Assembly (NCBI GenBank): GCA_016195985.1
Contig: JACPYP010000012.1
Location: 62,001 to 126,000, forward strand
Length of the DNA stretch: 64,000 nucleotides
From: Acidobacteriota bacterium
Lineage (GTDB): Bacteria; Acidobacteriota; Holophagae; Holophagales; Holophagaceae
Reading direction: 5' to 3'
Part shown: positions 22,514 to 33,466 of the stretch, piece by piece
How the letters are laid out: the number at the start of each line of letters is the position of its first letter
Position numbering within the stretch: position 1 is the stretch's first letter
Program-made: the position numbers and the translations under genes
The notes under the pieces: generated by a model
Told to the model about the DNA's origin: nothing
What the model saw: only the letters and a program-made list of their open reading frames with translations
The model's database searches: none

Positions 22514-23245
22514 TCAGTCTTCCGGTTCCTCGTAATCGCCGTTGTGCCACACGTTCTGCACGTCGTCGTTGTCTTCCAGCAGGTCCACGAGCTTGAGGAA
22601 GCTGGTGAGCTTGGAGCCTTCCAGCGCGGTGCTGGTGCTGGGGTCCATGATGAGCTTGGCTTCGATGACCGGCAGCTTGGCGGCATCCACAGCGTCCTTC
22701 ACGGCCTGGTAGGACTCGGGGCTGGTCTTGATGACCCAGGCCTCCCCCTCGTTGACCACATCGTCGGCGCCGGCTTCCAGGGCCACTTCCATGATCTTGT
22801 CTTCCGGCACGTCCGGCTCGACGACGATCTGCCCCTGCTTGCTGAAGAGGTAGGCCACGGAGCCCTGGGCGCCGAGGTCGCCGCCGAACTTGGCGAAATA
22901 ACTCCGCACTTCAGGGGTGGTGCGGTTCTTGTTGTCGGTCATGGCCTCGATGAGGATGGCGGCGCCGCCGGGACCGTAGCCCTCGTAGACCACTTCCTCG
23001 TAGGTGACGCCTTCCAGCTCCCCCGTGCCCTTCTTGATGGCGCGCTCCCAGTTGTCCTTGGGCATGTTGCTGCCCTTGGCCTGGTCCACGGCCAGGCGCA
23101 GGCGAGGGTTGCTGGCCACGTCGCCGCCGCCGAGTCGGGCGGCCACGGTGATCTCCTTGAGGATCTTCGTGAAGACCTTGCCGCGCTTGGCATCGGCGGC
23201 GCCCTTTTTATGCTTGATGGTGGACCATTTGCTGTGACCTGACAT
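22514..23245 (-). CDS. yebC: YebC/PmpR-family translation or DNA-binding regulator
   Basis: A 243-residue protein with the invariant start [20 protein letters not shown], then [39 protein letters not shown] and a C-terminal [13 protein letters not shown], covering all three YebC domains. Members were described as transcriptional regulators and more recently as helpers of translation at proline stretches. The protein is of normal length with no anomalies. It follows the TPR membrane protein on the same strand (44 bp). Confidence 0.95.
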
Positions 23246-23288: not shown

Positions 23289-24008
23289 TCAGCCGCGCAA
23301 GGCCCGGCGGGACACGCGGGCGAAGGGCGGGGCCTCCTGGCGGATCATGGGGCGCTCCAGGAGGAACTGATACCACTGCTCGCCGTAGACCTTCATCTTG
23401 AGGGGCTTGCCGTTCTGCAGCAGGTTGCGGTTGGTGATGAGACGCTCGTCCCCCTTGCAGATGCCCAGGCCCTGGTTGAGGACTTCGATGGCCTTGTCCC
23501 GCTCGCCCATTTCCATAAGCACGTAAGCGTAGACAGCGTAGAGGAGGCTCTCCTTCTTTCCGGTCTTCAGGGCGAGATTGAAGGTCTCCTTGGCGAGCTT
23601 CTTCTCGCCGCGCTTCCACTGGAGGATTCCCAGCATGGCCTTGGCGATGAAATGCTGCATGGAGGCGGATTTCAGAAGGGGCTCAGCCTCGTCGTTCTTC
23701 TTGCGGAGATACTGCACGACGCCGATCTGCCCATCGATGCTGCCTTTCACAAGGAATTGCCGGGAGGAGAACCGGTAGCCTTCCTTCATGATGTCGATGG
23801 CTTTGTCGAACTGCTGCTTCTTCAACAGCTCGCCGGCGCGCGTGAAGATCCGCTCAAGCTCCTGCTGGACTTTCCGCCCCTGCCAGATGAACAGGCCGGC
23901 CCCGGCAAGGATGCCCAAAGGCAGGCTGATCCAGAGCTTGATGCTCAGCAGGCTGGATAGCACGATCACGGCGAGGGCGGCGCCCAGGCCGAGCAGGAGA
24001 TTGATCAC
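23289..24008 (-). CDS. Membrane-anchored TPR-like protein
   Basis: About 239 residues from the GTG at 24008, which follows GGAG by six bases; the frame is open to a TTG at 24044 without a ribosome site. Two hydrophobic spans lie at the N-terminus (about 2-20 and 24-42, with WISLPLGILAGAGLFIWQG), then TPR-like helices (FDKAIDIMKEGYRFSS; AKETFNLALKTGKKES; AIEVLNQGLGICKGDERL). It probably presents a cytoplasmic or periplasmic protein-interaction scaffold at the inner membrane. No specific function recognised. It sits between ybeY and yebC. Confidence 0.7.
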   Translation of the reverse strand: MINLLLGLGAALAVIVLSSLLSIKLWISLPLGILAGAGLFIWQGRKVQQELERIFTRAGELLKKQQFDKAIDIMKEGYRFSSRQFLVKGSIDGQIGVVQYLRKKNDEAEPLLKSASMQHFIAKAMLGILQWKRGEKKLAKETFNLALKTGKKESLLYAVYAYVLMEMGERDKAIEVLNQGLGICKGDERLITNRNLLQNGKPLKMKVYGEQWYQFLLERPMIRQEAPPFARVSRRALRG

Positions 24009-24097
24009 GGAAACTCCGTATGGCACGGCCCGAAGCCGGGCCAAAGGGCCATTTTATCGGCCTTCGGGCTGATTTGCCATGCAGGGTTTGGAAAGGG

Positions 24098-24832
24098 CTA
24101 ACCGATGACGCCGCTGCGGGAGGGGCCCGGGCGGCGGCGGCGGACGGCGCGCTTGGCCGGTGGGGGCGCAGCGGCTTCTTTCCTCGGACGGCCGGGGCCG
24201 CGCTTGGGAAGAAGGGCCTCCTTCGGCTTGACCGTCTTCTTGGTTTTGCCTTTCTTGTCTTTCTTCACGCGTTCGCGGCGCACCAGGGCCGCGGCCGCAC
24301 GGCCTGTCACGACCACGCGGGAGCCGTCCTTCAGTTTCTTCACCTTGCTCCCGGGCTTCCGGCCCCGCTTCAGGCTCATGGCCAGCGGTTCCTCATCGAG
24401 CAGTTCCCGCTCCAGCTGGGCCTGCAATTCCATCATCTCTCCACGATCCATTTCGTGGTCATGACCGCAAAGGTGAAGGAATGCGTGGATGACCAGCGTC
24501 TCCACTTCGCGGCGGCGGCTCACGCCGAATTTCTTGGCCATTTTTTCCGCAGTAGGCAGGCTGATGACGATGTCGCCCAAATGGGGGAAGGCGCCCTTTT
24601 CTGCACTGGAGGGGAAGCTCAGGACATCGGTGGTGATATTTTTTCCGCGATGTTCGCGGTTGAGTTTTCTCATGCCTCGATCATCGACATAGGTGAGAGA
24701 TATGCCTTGAGCTTCTGGGGCCAATCGATCCCTGAGGTCGTGCAGCAGTTTCCCTAGAGACTGTTCGCCCGGCCCCCGCATTTTGCTGCGGCTGGACCAA
24801 TCGATCGTGAAAGGGGGGCGGGATTCAGTCAT
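24098..24832 (-). CDS. ybeY: Endoribonuclease YbeY with a basic AT-hook-like C-terminal tail
   Basis: A 244-residue protein. Residues 1-150 are YbeY: NREHRGKNITTDVLSFP, GDIVIS and the zinc motif HAFLHLCGHDH. YbeY matures the 16S rRNA 3' end and takes part in ribosome quality control. Usual family length is about 150-160; here about 90 more residues follow, rich in Lys, Arg, Pro and Ala, with two AT-hook-like cores (KRGRKPGSK and KRGPGRPRKE). The tail is probably disordered and nucleic-acid binding. AAAGGA precedes the ATG, which overlaps a possible upstream small ORF. Confidence 0.88.
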   Translation of the reverse strand: MTESRPPFTIDWSSRSKMRGPGEQSLGKLLHDLRDRLAPEAQGISLTYVDDRGMRKLNREHRGKNITTDVLSFPSSAEKGAFPHLGDIVISLPTAEKMAKKFGVSRRREVETLVIHAFLHLCGHDHEMDRGEMMELQAQLERELLDEEPLAMSLKRGRKPGSKVKKLKDGSRVVVTGRAAAALVRRERVKKDKKGKTKKTVKPKEALLPKRGPGRPRKEAAAPPPAKRAVRRRRPGPSRSGVIG

Positions 24833-25058
24833 GGCCGTTTTCCTTTCGTAAGATCAATAATAGGATGCTCATCATTATCCAATATGAAGTATTTGTCAAT
24901 ACGGTAATTCTAGAAGCAATAATTGGATCGATGTACTGTCTCTGGTCTTCAAATAGGAGATGAATTCGCCCGGTTGCAATCATGCTTTGAATTGCTGAAT
25001 TAATAAGATAAAGGGTGATTGAACTGGAGATTAAATGCTTGTATTGCTTCCCTGGCAT
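24825..25058 (-). CDS. Possible small membrane protein in an AT-rich island
   Basis: From an ATG at 25058 an open frame of 77 codons runs through an AT-rich tract (about 24845-25035) and stops eight bases inside ybeY (ATGACTGA). The predicted protein has two hydrophobic stretches (LISSSITLYLINSAI; SYWIMMSILLLILRK) and a charged end. Length without stops in AT-rich DNA and the tight overlap with ybeY favour a real gene. Against it, the region also lies between divergent genes and should contain promoters, the start overlaps rsmG, and no ribosome site is obvious. No family recognised. Confidence 0.3.
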   Translation of the reverse strand: MPGKQYKHLISSSITLYLINSAIQSMIATGRIHLLFEDQRQYIDPIIASRITVLTNTSYWIMMSILLLILRKENGHD

Positions 25059-25658
25059 GCTGGAAGCATGGAACCTCGCCTGCCCATCGATATCCAACCG
25101 GCCCTGGGCCGCTACCTGGTGCTTCTGGACAAGTGGAACCGCACCCATGCGCTCACGGCCCTGCCGCCGGGAGAGCGGCGCGAGGAATTGCTGCAGGATG
25201 CCGCGGCGCTGCTGCCCTTCCTGGCTGGACTGCCCACTGGAGCAAGGGTGGTCGACTTCGGAACGGGCATGGGGTCCCCGGCGGTGGTGCTGGCCCTCGC
25301 CCGGCCTGATCTGGAGGTCCTAGGCGTCGATGCTTCGAGCAAGAAAATGGCCTTCCTCCGGCAGGTGGCCATGGAACTTCCCGTTCCCAACCTTCAGGTG
25401 GTTCAGGGCCGTTTGGAAGCATTGGAACCCATGCAGGCCCATTGGGGCACCGCCAAGGCCCTGGCCCCGTTGGATGCGTTGCTTGGATGGTGGGGCCGGC
25501 ATGGAAGGCCCGAGGCTCCGTTCTTTGCCCTGAAGGGCCAGGATTGGGGAGATGAACTTCTGCCCGGTGGATGGGCGGCCAAACCCCACCCCTACGCTCT
25601 TCCGACCCGTGGGAGCCGTGTGGTGGTGGAGTTGAGGCCCTCGCCTGGAAAGACCTGA
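25035..25658 (+). CDS. rsmG: 16S rRNA (guanine527-N7)-methyltransferase, diverged
   Basis: A 207-residue Rossmann methyltransferase. KWNRTHALTALPP matches the RsmG N-terminal KWNxxxNLT pattern, VVDFGTGMGSPAVVLALARP is the SAM motif and VLGVDASSKKMAFLRQVA the acidic-ribose motif. The typical RsmG GSGAGFPG reads GTGMGSPA, and the protein is somewhat short, so it is a diverged member. GGAG five bases before the ATG at 25035 supports that start; an alternative ATG lies at 25068. Confidence 0.72.
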   Translation: MLVLLPWHAGSMEPRLPIDIQPALGRYLVLLDKWNRTHALTALPPGERREELLQDAAALLPFLAGLPTGARVVDFGTGMGSPAVVLALARPDLEVLGVDASSKKMAFLRQVAMELPVPNLQVVQGRLEALEPMQAHWGTAKALAPLDALLGWWGRHGRPEAPFFALKGQDWGDELLPGGWAAKPHPYALPTRGSRVVVELRPSPGKT

Positions 25659-29558: not shown

Positions 29559-30416
29559 TCAGCCTTTTTTGGCGGGGGCCTTCTTTTTGGGCTTCGGTTT
29601 CGCGGGCTCGGCTTCTTCCTCCTTGCCCAGCAGTCCGTTCACCAGGCGGGTGACGTCCTTGCTGGAGGGGTCGAGCTTCTGTAGTCGGCGGGCATAGGTG
29701 AGCCGTTCCTGGCGGGGGCGCGCGTCATCCGCCTTCACCTGATCGAGCTTGCCGGCGACGAAGGGAACGGTTCCCCCCGCTTCTGCCATTTCGGCCTTCT
29801 CGGTGGCGAGGAAGGCCTGCCAGTCGGCCGTGGTCTTCGCCGTGGTTTCCTTGGCCTGCCGGAGCCGCGCCAGGATGCCCTCGATGTCCTTCAGCGCGCG
29901 CTCGCTGTGGGCGATGGCCGCCTGCTGTTCCTCCATGAAGATCTTCAGCTGCTGGCGCAGCTTGATCTGCTCCTGGGACAGTCCGGGAGCTTCTTCCAGT
30001 TCCCTGAGGCGCGGTGTCTGCTTGGCGATGGCTTCCCTGTATTCCTTGAGCTTCAGTTCATGCTCGGCGCGGGTTTTGGCGAGGAATGGTTCCGCCGTGG
30101 CGAGGTTTTCTTCCGCAGCCGACTGGGCCTTCGACATGTGTGCGACGGCCTCCTCCCAGCTGCCTTCGGCCAGGCAGGCCCGGGCGGCGAGGCCGCGGAG
30201 TGCCACCAGCGCGTGCATGTCGTTGTAGTCGGAGGGATTGATGGAGAGCCCCTCCCGGCCCAGCAGGGCTTCCACGCCCTTGCGGACGGTGCTGGCTTCA
30301 CCCCGTTCCAACTGGAGCTCCCAGGGGCCGCGGACTTCTTTGAATCGGTCGGTCAGGCTTTGAGCGCCGAGGCTGGTGGCCAGGGCGCATGCAAGCAGGA
30401 ATCCGAAGCGGGTCAT
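29559..30416 (-). CDS. Exported coiled-coil protein with Lys-rich tail (paralogue 1)
   Basis: A 285-residue protein with a signal peptide (1-18, ending SLGAQ). Most of the mature part is helical with heptad-like charge patterns (RAEHELKLKEYREAIAKQ; LKIFMEEQQAAIAHSERAL), and the C-terminus is a short Lys/Pro tail (KPKPKKKAPAKKG). It shares order and composition with the next gene on the same strand (signal peptide, helical coiled coil, LxxLDPxxxDVTRLVNGLL-type segment, Lys tail). A periplasmic structural or envelope-linking role is inferred; no family recognised. Confidence 0.65.
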   Translation of the reverse strand: MTRFGFLLACALATSLGAQSLTDRFKEVRGPWELQLERGEASTVRKGVEALLGREGLSINPSDYNDMHALVALRGLAARACLAEGSWEEAVAHMSKAQSAAEENLATAEPFLAKTRAEHELKLKEYREAIAKQTPRLRELEEAPGLSQEQIKLRQQLKIFMEEQQAAIAHSERALKDIEGILARLRQAKETTAKTTADWQAFLATEKAEMAEAGGTVPFVAGKLDQVKADDARPRQERLTYARRLQKLDPSSKDVTRLVNGLLGKEEEAEPAKPKPKKKAPAKKG

Positions 30417-30449: not shown

Positions 30450-31457
30450 CTACTTCTTCTTGGTGCCGGCTTTTTTGGAAGCCTTGGCCTCCTTGGCAAA
30501 AGCATCCTTGCCGGCGACCAGATTGTCGAGGGCCTTCTTGGCAGATGCGTTGCCGGGATCCAGCACCAGGAGCCGGTTCAGGAAGGCGGCCTGGGCCTGG
30601 GGAGTGCCCAGCTTGGTGACGTTTTCCGGGGCCCGCAGCACGGCGTCCACCCAGTTCTTCTTGCCGACGATCTTCACCTTCTTGATGGTCTGCTGGGTGT
30701 TGAACTGGGTGATTTCATCGTTCTGGTTCGCCACCGCCTGCTTGGCCTTGGCGACGGCCTCGTCCGCGGCCTTGATCATGCCTTCGACTTCCTTGCGGTT
30801 GTCGGCGAGGAGCTTGGCCACCTTGGGAGCATTGGCCAGGTTCTGCTTGTGGACGGGCAGGGCATTGGCGATCTGCATGAGTTCCGTTTCGTCCTGCTGC
30901 ACCTGGGCGCCCCGGGCGTTGAAGTCGTCCGCTTCCTTTTTGCTCAGCTTCTTCTTGCTGGCCTTGAGTTCTTCGTACTCGGCCTTGAAGGCGGTGACCT
31001 TCGCCTCCAGCTCCTTCTGGCGGGGCTCGTTCTTGGCCACGAATTCACTGGAGCTCTTGGCCACGTCGTTCCACTGGGTGGCGAGGGGGGCCTGGGCCTT
31101 CTCAAGGTCCGTCAGGGTGGCCCGGGCGGCCAGGGCGCGTTTTTCCTGGATTTCCAGCGCTTTTTCCCACTGGCCCGATTCCGATGTGACGTTGGCGTAG
31201 AGGCGATACAGGGACATGAGGCCCTGGGCGTTGTCCAGACTCTGTCCAATGTCCTTCGGCGTAGCGGCGTTGAAGGGGGGGCGCTGGGCCGGGATCAGAG
31301 CCTGCACCTTGGCCAGGGCCTCCTGGGGCTTCAGCTCTTTCAGCAGCTGGTTGATGCCGGGCAGTTCGGTGTTGAACCGCTGGGCGAGGTTCTGGTCTGC
31401 GGGGGCCTGGGCGACCAGGGTGACGGCTGGGACGAGCAGGAAGGTCAGTGGGCGCAT
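30450..31457 (-). CDS. Exported coiled-coil protein with Lys-rich tail (paralogue 2)
   Basis: A 335-residue protein from the ATG at 31457 (GGAG six bases upstream); sequence before it in frame is leader. Signal peptide MRPLTFLLVPAVTLVAQA. Long helices with coiled-coil character occupy the centre (KNEPRQKELEAKVTAFKAEY; ELKASKKKLSKKEADDF). Near the end RLLVLDPGNASAKKALDNLVAG matches the RLQKLDPSSKDVTRLVNGLL segment of the adjacent gene, and the tail is KKAGTKKK. The two genes are 33 bp apart and probably form a duplicated operon pair. Confidence 0.65.
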   Translation of the reverse strand: MRPLTFLLVPAVTLVAQAPADQNLAQRFNTELPGINQLLKELKPQEALAKVQALIPAQRPPFNAATPKDIGQSLDNAQGLMSLYRLYANVTSESGQWEKALEIQEKRALAARATLTDLEKAQAPLATQWNDVAKSSSEFVAKNEPRQKELEAKVTAFKAEYEELKASKKKLSKKEADDFNARGAQVQQDETELMQIANALPVHKQNLANAPKVAKLLADNRKEVEGMIKAADEAVAKAKQAVANQNDEITQFNTQQTIKKVKIVGKKNWVDAVLRAPENVTKLGTPQAQAAFLNRLLVLDPGNASAKKALDNLVAGKDAFAKEAKASKKAGTKKK

Positions 31458-31537
31458 GGGCACTCCAGAAAGGTTCAGCCTCCAGGGTAGCGAAAAGGCC
31501 CGGATCGGGTGTTTTTCCCCGCCAGTTTGTGACGGGA

Positions 31538-33466
31538 TCAGTCCCCGCTCCGTTTTTCTTCCAGTTCCAGCCATTCGGTTTCCAACGGCTCCAGCTCGCT
31601 TTGGGCGCTGTCCCTGTCCTTCAGGGCCTGGTGCCCGGGGCTGTCGGGGCGCAGAAAGGCGGTGGGAGCCGCCAGGGTGGCATCGAGTTCCTCCAGCCGC
31701 CCATGGAGGGCGGCCAGCGCCTGTTCAACCTCGGCCAGGCGCCGCTGCTCCTTTTGCGAGAGCCCCGGTTTTTTGGGCTTGTCAGGGGCCGGGCGGGCGG
31801 AGGCCCGGGGTCCCTCTGCCTTGGGCGGGGCCTGTTCCGCCGCCCGGGCCTCGCGCAGGCTCCGCACGGTGGTGGGCGGGCCCTCGTACAACTCCCACCG
31901 GGGGCTGCCTGCGGCATTCCAGGCCAGGGTGTGGGTGGCCACCTGGTCGAGGAAGAAGCGGTCGTGGCTCACCAGCACCAGGGTGCCGCCGAAGCCCGAA
32001 AGGGCCTCTTCCAGGTTCTGGAGGGTGGGGATGTCCAGATCGTTGGTGGGCTCATCCAGGACCAGGAGGTCCGAAGGGTTCAGCATGGCCTTGGCCATGA
32101 GGAGGCGGTTCCGTTCCCCGCCGCTCAGAGTGGAGGCAGGGCGGGCCTGCTGATCCACCGGAAAACCGAAACGGGTGAGGTAGACGTGGGCAAGCACGGT
32201 GCCGTTGCCCGTGTCCACGATGGCGGCCCGGTCCGCCAGATTGTCAAGAACGCTGCGCCGGCCATCCAGCTCCCCGCGGCCTTGCGAAATGGCGGTCACG
32301 GCGAGTTTCGGGTGGCGCGCCACTGATCCAGCCGTGGGCTCCAGCTCTCCCAGCAGCACCTTCAGGAGCGTGGATTTGCCGCAGCCGTTCGGCCCCAGCA
32401 GGGCGATGCGCATGCCTCTCTGCAGGCCGAGATCCAGGGTGCCCAGCAATTCCGGGCCATTTTGATAGGCGAAGCGGATGCCCTCCGCGCGGACGAGGGC
32501 GTCGCTGCGGTTGTCGCCCTTCGCAAAGGCAAGCCCTTGGCGGATCTCCTGCCGCGTGCGTTCGGCGACGTTGTCCTTGAGGTCGAGGACTTCCTGAATG
32601 CGGAGCTTCGATTTCCGGGTGCGGGCCTTGGCGCCGCGCCGCAGCCAAGCCATCTCCCGGCGCAGGCGGTTCTGCATGTGTTCAGTAAGCCGCGCCTCGC
32701 GGAATTCGCGATCTGATTTCTCCAGCAAGTAGTCGCTGTAGCCGCCTTCATAGCTGCGGAGAGCGCCGTCCTCCAACTCCAGCATCCGGGAAACGACCGC
32801 GTCCAGCAGATGGCGGTCGTGCGTGATGAGAAGAAGGGCGCCTTCAAAACCCGCCAGCCAAGCCTCCAGGCGCTCCACCTGTTCGGGATCGAGATGGTTG
32901 GTGGGCTCGTCGAGCACCAGCACATCGGGCTCCTTGAGCCAGGCCTGGGCGAGAGCCACGCGCTTCCGCCAACCGCCGGAGAGGGATTCCACTTCGGCGT
33001 CAAGATCGGCCAGGCCCCACATGGTGGCCGCAGCCTTGAGCCGGGGAGTGAGGTCCCAGCCCCAGTGATGCAGGAGGTGTTCCACGTTTTGCAATTCGTC
33101 AAAAAGCCGTGCTTCCGCGTCCCCGGCGGATCCATGGAGGATGTCGTGGATCTCTTGATGGCGGGCCAGGAGCGCGGCGTGGTCCGAGAGGGCCGCCTCC
33201 AAAGCCTGGCGGATGCTGGCGCCGGGCGCGAAATGGGGCTCTTGGCTGAGGCGCGCGACGCGCAGGCCCTGGGTGATCACCACCTCGCCTGAATCGGGAA
33301 TCTCATCGCCGGTGAGCAGGCGGAAGAGCGTGCTTTTTCCAGCGCCGTTGCGGCCGATGAGGCCCACTTTCTCGCCCTGGAAGAGCCCGAAACTCAGTCC
33401 GTCCAGGATGGCTGTTGAGCCATAGCGTTTCGTGACATTGATCAAACTCAGTGCGATGGACGGCAA
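31538..33466 (-). CDS. uup: ABC-F family ATPase, Uup type
   Basis: A 642-residue soluble twin-ATPase. Domain 1: GRNGAGKST near 38, LSGGWRKRV and LVLDEPTNHLD; domain 2: GPNGCGKST, LSGGERNRLLMA and LVLDEPTNDLD. After the second ATPase a Lys/Pro linker (APDKPKKPGLSQKEQRRL) leads to a C-terminal coiled coil (about 565-640), the DNA-binding feature distinguishing Uup from other ABC-F proteins. Uup limits precise transposon excision and helps ribosome function. It is the second ABC-F protein in the window besides the YbiT type at 9.5 kb. Confidence 0.9.
   Translation of the reverse strand: MPSIALSLINVTKRYGSTAILDGLSFGLFQGEKVGLIGRNGAGKSTLFRLLTGDEIPDSGEVVITQGLRVARLSQEPHFAPGASIRQALEAALSDHAALLARHQEIHDILHGSAGDAEARLFDELQNVEHLLHHWGWDLTPRLKAAATMWGLADLDAEVESLSGGWRKRVALAQAWLKEPDVLVLDEPTNHLDPEQVERLEAWLAGFEGALLLITHDRHLLDAVVSRMLELEDGALRSYEGGYSDYLLEKSDREFREARLTEHMQNRLRREMAWLRRGAKARTRKSKLRIQEVLDLKDNVAERTRQEIRQGLAFAKGDNRSDALVRAEGIRFAYQNGPELLGTLDLGLQRGMRIALLGPNGCGKSTLLKVLLGELEPTAGSVARHPKLAVTAISQGRGELDGRRSVLDNLADRAAIVDTGNGTVLAHVYLTRFGFPVDQQARPASTLSGGERNRLLMAKAMLNPSDLLVLDEPTNDLDIPTLQNLEEALSGFGGTLVLVSHDRFFLDQVATHTLAWNAAGSPRWELYEGPPTTVRSLREARAAEQAPPKAEGPRASARPAPDKPKKPGLSQKEQRRLAEVEQALAALHGRLEELDATLAAPTAFLRPDSPGHQALKDRDSAQSELEPLETEWLELEEKRSGD

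Follow-up and report, generated by a model that had tools for sequence, protein, structure and literature searches.

A conserved basic C-terminal tail on YbeY in the Holophagaceae and its possible role as an RNA tether

The YbeY protein of an Acidobacteriota bacterium from the Holophagaceae carries a long, strongly basic C-terminal tail, and within the genomes that we sampled the sequence profile of this tail is confined to that one family. The most conserved part is a block of about 38 residues that includes a predicted hairpin and helix, and which the first-pass annotation of this DNA had not foreseen. Nor had it foreseen this restriction to one family, or that YbeZ, the usual partner of YbeY, would not be found in the genomes of the family that were tested. 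YbeY is a near-universal bacterial ribosome-maturation enzyme, and the reading that we favour, placing it just on the probable side, is that the tail is a lineage-specific, mostly flexible tether that would bind nucleic acid, take rRNA as its ligand and recruit and hold YbeY on the pre-30S particle. The gene lies in a stretch of 64,000 nucleotides that was analysed as a whole (the window), in which the features relevant to this work are as follows.

24832..24098, minus strand: ybeY, whole coding sequence of 244 amino acids, ATG start, open throughout
24413..24718, minus strand: YbeY catalytic domain, residues 39-140, with the HAFLHLCGHDH zinc motif (Pfam PF02130; PDB matches)
24101..24388, minus strand: family-specific basic C-terminal tail, residues 149-244 (profile survey, alignment and charge count)
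24275..24388, minus strand: block 1 of the tail, residues 149-186 (PLAMSLKRGRKPGSKVKKLKDGSRVVVTGRAAAALVRR), 20 of its 38 positions unchanging among 46 proteins, dN/dS 0.055
24251..24346, minus strand: predicted beta-hairpin and helix, residues 163-194 (AlphaFold2, moderate confidence)
24206..24274, minus strand: linker rich in Lys, residues 187-209, whose length and sequence vary, dN/dS 0.230
24173..24205, minus strand: block 2, residues 210-220, KRGPGRPRKEA, with an AT-hook-like PGRP core, dN/dS 0.040
24122..24172, minus strand: variable basic stretch, residues 221-237, dN/dS 0.368
24101..24121, minus strand: conserved C-terminal end, residues 238-244, SRSGVIG, dN/dS 0.161
23289..24044, minus strand: TPR protein gene, directly downstream of ybeY, kept in 52 of 53 family loci
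22514..23245, minus strand: yebC (TACO1/YebC family), next gene after the TPR gene, kept in 51 of 53 family loci
25035..25658, plus strand: rsmG/gidB (16S rRNA methyltransferase G), divergent neighbour, kept in 52 of 53 family loci

The part of the protein that precedes the tail is an ordinary YbeY. Residues 39-140 match Pfam YbeY PF02130 (E 1.5e-29, 102.9 bits against a cut-off of 25), the only match to this family in the 4.26-Mb genome, and the protein matches NCBIfam TIGR00043 'rRNA maturation RNase YbeY' (E 4.9e-30, 104.1 bits against a cut-off of 45). The H-x3-H-x5-H metal motif is present as HAFLHLCGHDH, and its three histidines are invariant in 46 aligned proteins. An AlphaFold2 model of the whole protein has six PDB matches at E <= 0.001, every one of YbeY/UPF0054 type, among them 7y7o and 1xm5 (E 1.2e-11, TM 0.81-0.83 by target). 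With both family models above their cut-offs and the histidine motif intact, the earlier description of a normal ribonuclease domain is borne out. The solved YbeY structures from E. coli (1xm5), S. aureus (7y7o) and A. aeolicus (1oz9) have the catalytic domain, histidine motif and fold in common with it; their chains of 141-152 residues end after the domain, whereas the window YbeY adds about 96 residues. Counted from the end of the histidine motif, 118 residues follow in the window protein, compared with 23-27 in 15 YbeYs from two other families of the same class (f2 and f3). The interval 24098-24400 that the first-pass annotation assigned to the tail corresponds to residues 145-244 plus the stop codon, and the added part is best set at residues 149-244 (24388-24101).

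The tail has a recognisable plan, which we followed in 52 distinct proteins drawn from 72 loci of isolates and metagenome-assembled genomes that were selected by the peptide VVTGRAA. Block 1, PLxMxLKRGRKPGSKVKKLKDGSRVVVTGRAAAAL, is followed by the Lys-rich linker, block 2 (KRGPGRPRK), the variable basic stretch and a terminal RSGVIx. Because the set was selected by VVTGRAA a count of VTGRAA would be circular, and the patterns to consider are RGRKxGS, PGRPxK and the C-terminal R-[STN]-[GP]-[VI]-[IL]-x, each of which is present in 52 of the 52 proteins. The exact peptides KRGRKPG and GPGRPRK, both of which had been picked out earlier and do lie in the window tail, occur in 47/52 and 48/52 family proteins respectively, and the spacing from VTGRAA to PGRP ranges from 29 to 62 residues. 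Residues 149-244 contain 34 Lys and Arg and 5 Asp and Glu, while residues 1-148 contain 22 and 25, so that the earlier statement that the tail doubles the charged surface is a fair one for positive charge. Across the 52 proteins the net charge of the tail is +24 to +39, and that of the rest of the protein is -5 to +5.

Conservation is distributed unevenly along the tail. In the 46 aligned proteins 20 of the 38 positions of block 1 are invariant, as against 50 of the 148 positions of residues 1-148. Pooled pairwise Nei-Gojobori dN/dS over 40 sequences (the pairs are non-independent, and 12 more divergent sequences were excluded) gives residues 2-148 a value of 0.064, block 1 0.055 and block 2 0.040; the values for the linker, residues 221-237 and the last seven residues are 0.230, 0.368 and 0.161, respectively. 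By these substitution rates blocks 1 and 2 are constrained like the catalytic domain, and drift is seen in the linker and in residues 221-237. A tail in which brief motifs, as constrained as an enzyme core, alternate with basic linkers that drift has the look of a functioning tether and not of a read-through in decay.

We built a profile from 19 tails and ran it against 396 genomes of the phylum, the source genome of the window among them, scoring up to 12 candidates per genome. It matched 37 of 39 Holophagaceae genomes (including Geothrix) at E 2.1e-29 or better; outside the family 11 of 357 genomes gave weak matches, the best at E 9.9e-5. The two misses within the family belong to one genus with streamlined genomes of about 1.2 Mb, which is probably UBA12189/Acidiparvus, described in PMC11561045 as the sole genome-streamlined genus of the Holophagaceae. 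A YbeY match was found in two of three genomes of this genus and none in the third (G222), and both YbeYs that were read (L114 of G348 and L240 of G422) end at DPLPMG(RP), where the tail would begin. In a YbeY tree a single clade of the tail-bearing rows has an AU test p of 0.126, and with the long branch of this genus the tree does not separate a loss of the tail there from a split that preceded its gain.

The first-pass annotation had proposed a long basic tail on YbeY and had taken its absence from all relatives as the sign of a local frameshift read-through. The tail is instead genuine and family-wide, and we give practically no probability to a frameshift, read-through or assembly artefact: the 52 distinct sequences, although selected by VVTGRAA, are open through the tail in isolates and metagenome-assembled genomes alike, and in the profile survey, which was unbiased, the tail matches of the 37 family genomes are all free of internal stops.

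In the full-length AlphaFold2 model the YbeY domain is confident, the hairpin and helix at residues 163-194 are of moderate confidence (block means 64-71 for residues 161-190) and the chain beyond residue ~194 is mostly of low confidence and predicted to be disordered. Modelled alone, the tail gives the same elements with block means of 81-86 over tail residues 11-40 and a pTM of 0.32. This moderately confident tail model has no PDB match at E <= 0.001 in Foldseek (best E 0.78) and a best Z of 2.7 in VIA-align. Many eukaryotic and archaeal ribosomal-protein chains appear in the Foldseek output, but at E 0.8 or worse, and we gave them no weight as evidence for a known fold of block 1. Searches by sequence were equally silent: the window tail matches no Pfam family at E <= 10, nothing came up below E 0.9 among PDB sequences (best 0.94 and 1.1), and none of the 19 tails matches NCBIfam (best E 0.065) or PHROGs (best E 0.057) below E 0.05. 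The best PHROGs value belongs to phrog_33018, of unknown function, which weakly matches 7 of the 19 tails. A convincing relative of the tail was thus not found in Pfam, NCBIfam, PHROGs or the PDB. We also considered whether the tail is a mobile module and rejected this, as the block 1 peptide had no plasmid match, none of 45 pattern-matched stretches in viral contigs was confirmed, and the PHROGs search of the 19 tails gave nothing below E 0.05.

The tail had been described as AT-hook-like, and this holds for one of the two peptides named. The AT-hook is defined by a G-R-P core flanked by basic residues (PMC4822317), to which KRGPGRPRK conforms, with PGRPxK present in all 52 proteins; KRGRKPG, the RGRKPG of block 1, has no GRP core. 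The Pfam AT_hook model (PF02178) gave four sub-threshold matches in the genome, none of them at this locus, although this 13-position model is insensitive and not one of 14 control genomes yielded a match that reached the cut-off. By sequence the tail is AT-hook-like in one place only, PGRPRK. A DNA pattern for GRPRK/GSPRK has 34 sites in the source genome against 75 for the reversed control; 30 of the 34 gave loci, whose frames by eye are mostly non-coding-looking. A GRPRK-type pentapeptide by itself is nothing out of the ordinary in so GC-rich a genome, and the weight rests on the conservation of the motif and not on the motif itself. The AT-hooks and extended AT-hooks of HMGA1 and PTOV1, as PMC4822317 presents them, share with the tail a G-R-P core flanked by Lys or Arg, but the tail differs from them in having a single core, unreported by the Pfam model, within a longer conserved tail on an RNase. 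The same source reports that some AT-hooks bind RNA, that extended ones prefer RNA to DNA, and that AT-hook cores and basic tails in other proteins bind structured RNA. By analogy, RNA rather than DNA would be the more economical ligand for an AT-hook-like element on an RNA enzyme.

YbeY is reported to work on rRNA next to uS11 and Era, in the region of the 16S rRNA 3' end (PMC5101352, PMC7515705, PMC10582724), and its RNase activity by itself has been called nonspecific (PMC5101352). In the mechanism that we propose, block 1, with its basic RGRKPGS arm and small hairpin and helix, would contact rRNA of the pre-30S particle, as would block 2 through PGRPRK, an AT-hook-like core with basic residues around it. 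The Lys-rich linker that joins the two blocks would be free to vary in length, the fixed C-terminal RSGVIx end may make a further contact, and the tether would in this way keep the catalytic domain close to the uS11/Era platform and to the 16S rRNA 3' end. We favour RNA as the target because a near-neutral domain with a tail of +24 to +39 should gain affinity for rRNA, and because the conserved motifs suggest specific contacts. The spread of the tail profile through 37 of 39 family genomes, the block-wise purifying selection and the predicted disorder beyond residue ~194 are consistent with this, and the earlier suggestion of a tether is plausible given a long basic tail conserved in relatives on an otherwise normal YbeY. 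Against it, Pfam, NCBIfam and PHROGs recognise no RNA-binding family in the tail, and basic tails can also bind DNA. The tail is evidently not needed for the basic work of YbeY, as both YbeYs read from the streamlined genus and all 15 read from f2 and f3 do without it. A role for the tail as stand-in for a missing ribosomal protein was rejected, as all 14 genomes searched have both uS11 and bS21; their C-terminal ends look ordinary where readable (uS11 in 13/14, bS21 in 12/14).

The genes around ybeY also point towards the ribosome. The counts given above come from 53 family loci, some of them from the same genome, and the exceptions (L070, L105 and L107) are short or end nearby. The neighbours rsmG and yebC are ribosome-related (PMC12234827); by eye, the TPR protein has a hydrophobic N-terminal stretch. 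All three neighbours are also kept around the tail-less YbeY of the streamlined genus (L114, the one locus checked), and none of them was matched at 15 f2 and f3 loci taken with about 1.5 kb of flank.

Elsewhere ybeZ lies with ybeY in an operon that is highly conserved (PMC5101352), and we searched for PhoH proteins in 34 hand-chosen genomes (G000 and 33 others), calling a match of more than 300 bits YbeZ-type. Such a protein was found in 12 of the 34, each time within 2.5 kb of ybeY: in 5/5 genomes of f2 and in 7/7 of four other families, where the family f10 accounts for four of the seven. It was not found in 14/14 tail-bearing genomes of the Holophagaceae, in 3/3 of the streamlined genus or in 5/5 of f3, which makes 17 of 17 tested Holophagaceae genomes without one (loci L245, L246, L248 and L249 belong to this observation). 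The YbeZ-negative genomes gave PhoH matches of at most 177 bits, or no match in the case of G422 (84% completeness), and the three such proteins that were checked (from G000, G038 and G348) have a PIN domain before PhoH and PhoH2 as their best NCBIfam match, under the model cut-off. Because tail-bearing genomes yielded PIN-PhoH2-type proteins only, the tailed YbeY appears, on these sequence searches, to have lost its usual partner YbeZ. The link between tail and YbeZ is a loose one: f3 lacks both, and four f10 genomes (L046, L049, L051, L225) have YbeZ together with a Lys/Arg-rich tail of another kind.

These observations bear on what else the tail might do. It could be a protein-docking module in which block 1 folds on a partner such as Era, uS11, the neighbouring TPR protein or another assembly factor, taking over the recruitment otherwise due to YbeZ. 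The enzyme-like constraint and partly folded prediction of block 1, the C-terminal end fixed in 52 of 52 proteins, the 14 tail-bearing genomes without YbeZ-type PhoH and the protein contacts through which YbeY is known to work (PMC5101352) all speak for docking, but the whole tail is strongly positive, the TPR gene adjoins the tail-less YbeY at L114 as well, and f3 and the four f10 genomes weaken the connection with YbeZ; we rank docking as possible and clearly behind the RNA tether. A bolder reading, which we consider unlikely, is that the Holophagaceae lost YbeZ, that the tail with its hairpin and helix is a new replacement acting in cis, able alone to bring YbeY to the pre-30S particle, and that the streamlined genus dropped the tail too.

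Two further readings share the lowest place among those that we take seriously. A DNA-binding AT-hook arm might anchor YbeY to the nucleoid, perhaps close to rRNA operons under transcription, and the PGRP core with its basic flanks in 52 of 52 proteins fits such an arm. There is, however, one core only, which the insensitive Pfam model does not report, YbeY is an RNA enzyme, and we saw no sign of a genome-wide AT-hook fashion: YbeY is the only match to the tail below E 0.2 in the source genome, and the GRPRK/GSPRK sites are fewer than in the control. We give this arm little credence, and no more to a Lys/Arg-rich tail that is nearly neutral, a decoration or an aid to solubility retained through descent. 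The free drift of the linker and of residues 221-237 would suit decoration, as would the Lys-rich tails found elsewhere in the phylum and in two other open reading frames of the window, but dN/dS in blocks 1 and 2 is as low as in the catalytic domain and over half of block 1 (20/38) is invariant in 46 proteins.

Several known systems resemble the tail in part. The C-terminal extension of uS11 is described as disordered, positive and close to h45, the presumed site of YbeY action (PMC7515705); the likeness to the YbeY tail is one of charge and presumed place only, without shown homology. RNase R and other RNases described with Lys-rich C-terminal tails likewise carry a basic tail on a bacterial RNase, but RNase R is unrelated to YbeY and is compared here by description. 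YbeY-Era fusions are also lineage-specific C-terminal additions that may couple YbeY to the pre-30S particle (PMC10582724), but they add a whole GTPase, whereas the Holophagaceae YbeY adds a short basic tail without a known domain. The first-pass annotation knew of no described case, and in the titles and abstract openings of the open-access literature, with subscription papers mostly outside, we likewise saw no such YbeY tail. How YbeY is placed on the ribosome and what YbeZ contributes are put as open questions in PMC5101352, and a lineage with a conserved basic YbeY tail, and in which YbeZ was not found, is a natural experiment on whether recruitment can be built into YbeY itself.

Outside the family 69 loci were tried and 68 read (all but L050), a non-random set picked for high score or a long open frame. 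VTGRAA, RGRKxGS and PGRP are absent after the histidine motif in all 68. Nine of these 68 loci have at least 10 Lys or Arg past the first 22 residues after the motif, unrelated Lys/Arg-rich tails at the equivalent place that, with the ribosome-related neighbours, lend some support to the RNA tether. Seven of the nine are in f10 (L046, L049, L051, L200, L210, L218 and L225), where the tails are low-complexity and of a different kind in an equivalent position. Since unrelated Lys/Arg-rich tails occur outside the family, basic YbeY tails have arisen more than once, with the conserved block plan seen in one family only. Lys-richness alone means little, as two other open reading frames of the window, 29559-30416 and 30450-31574 on the minus strand, also end in Lys-rich C-termini (KPKPKKKAPAKKG and KASKKAGTKKK), and by eye have signal-peptide-like starts. 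In eight loci (L201, L204, L207, L212, L214, L216, L220 and L221) the open YbeY frame is already 440-918 residues long where the histidine motif ends; these are perhaps N-terminal fusions, or else mere long open frames in GC-rich DNA.
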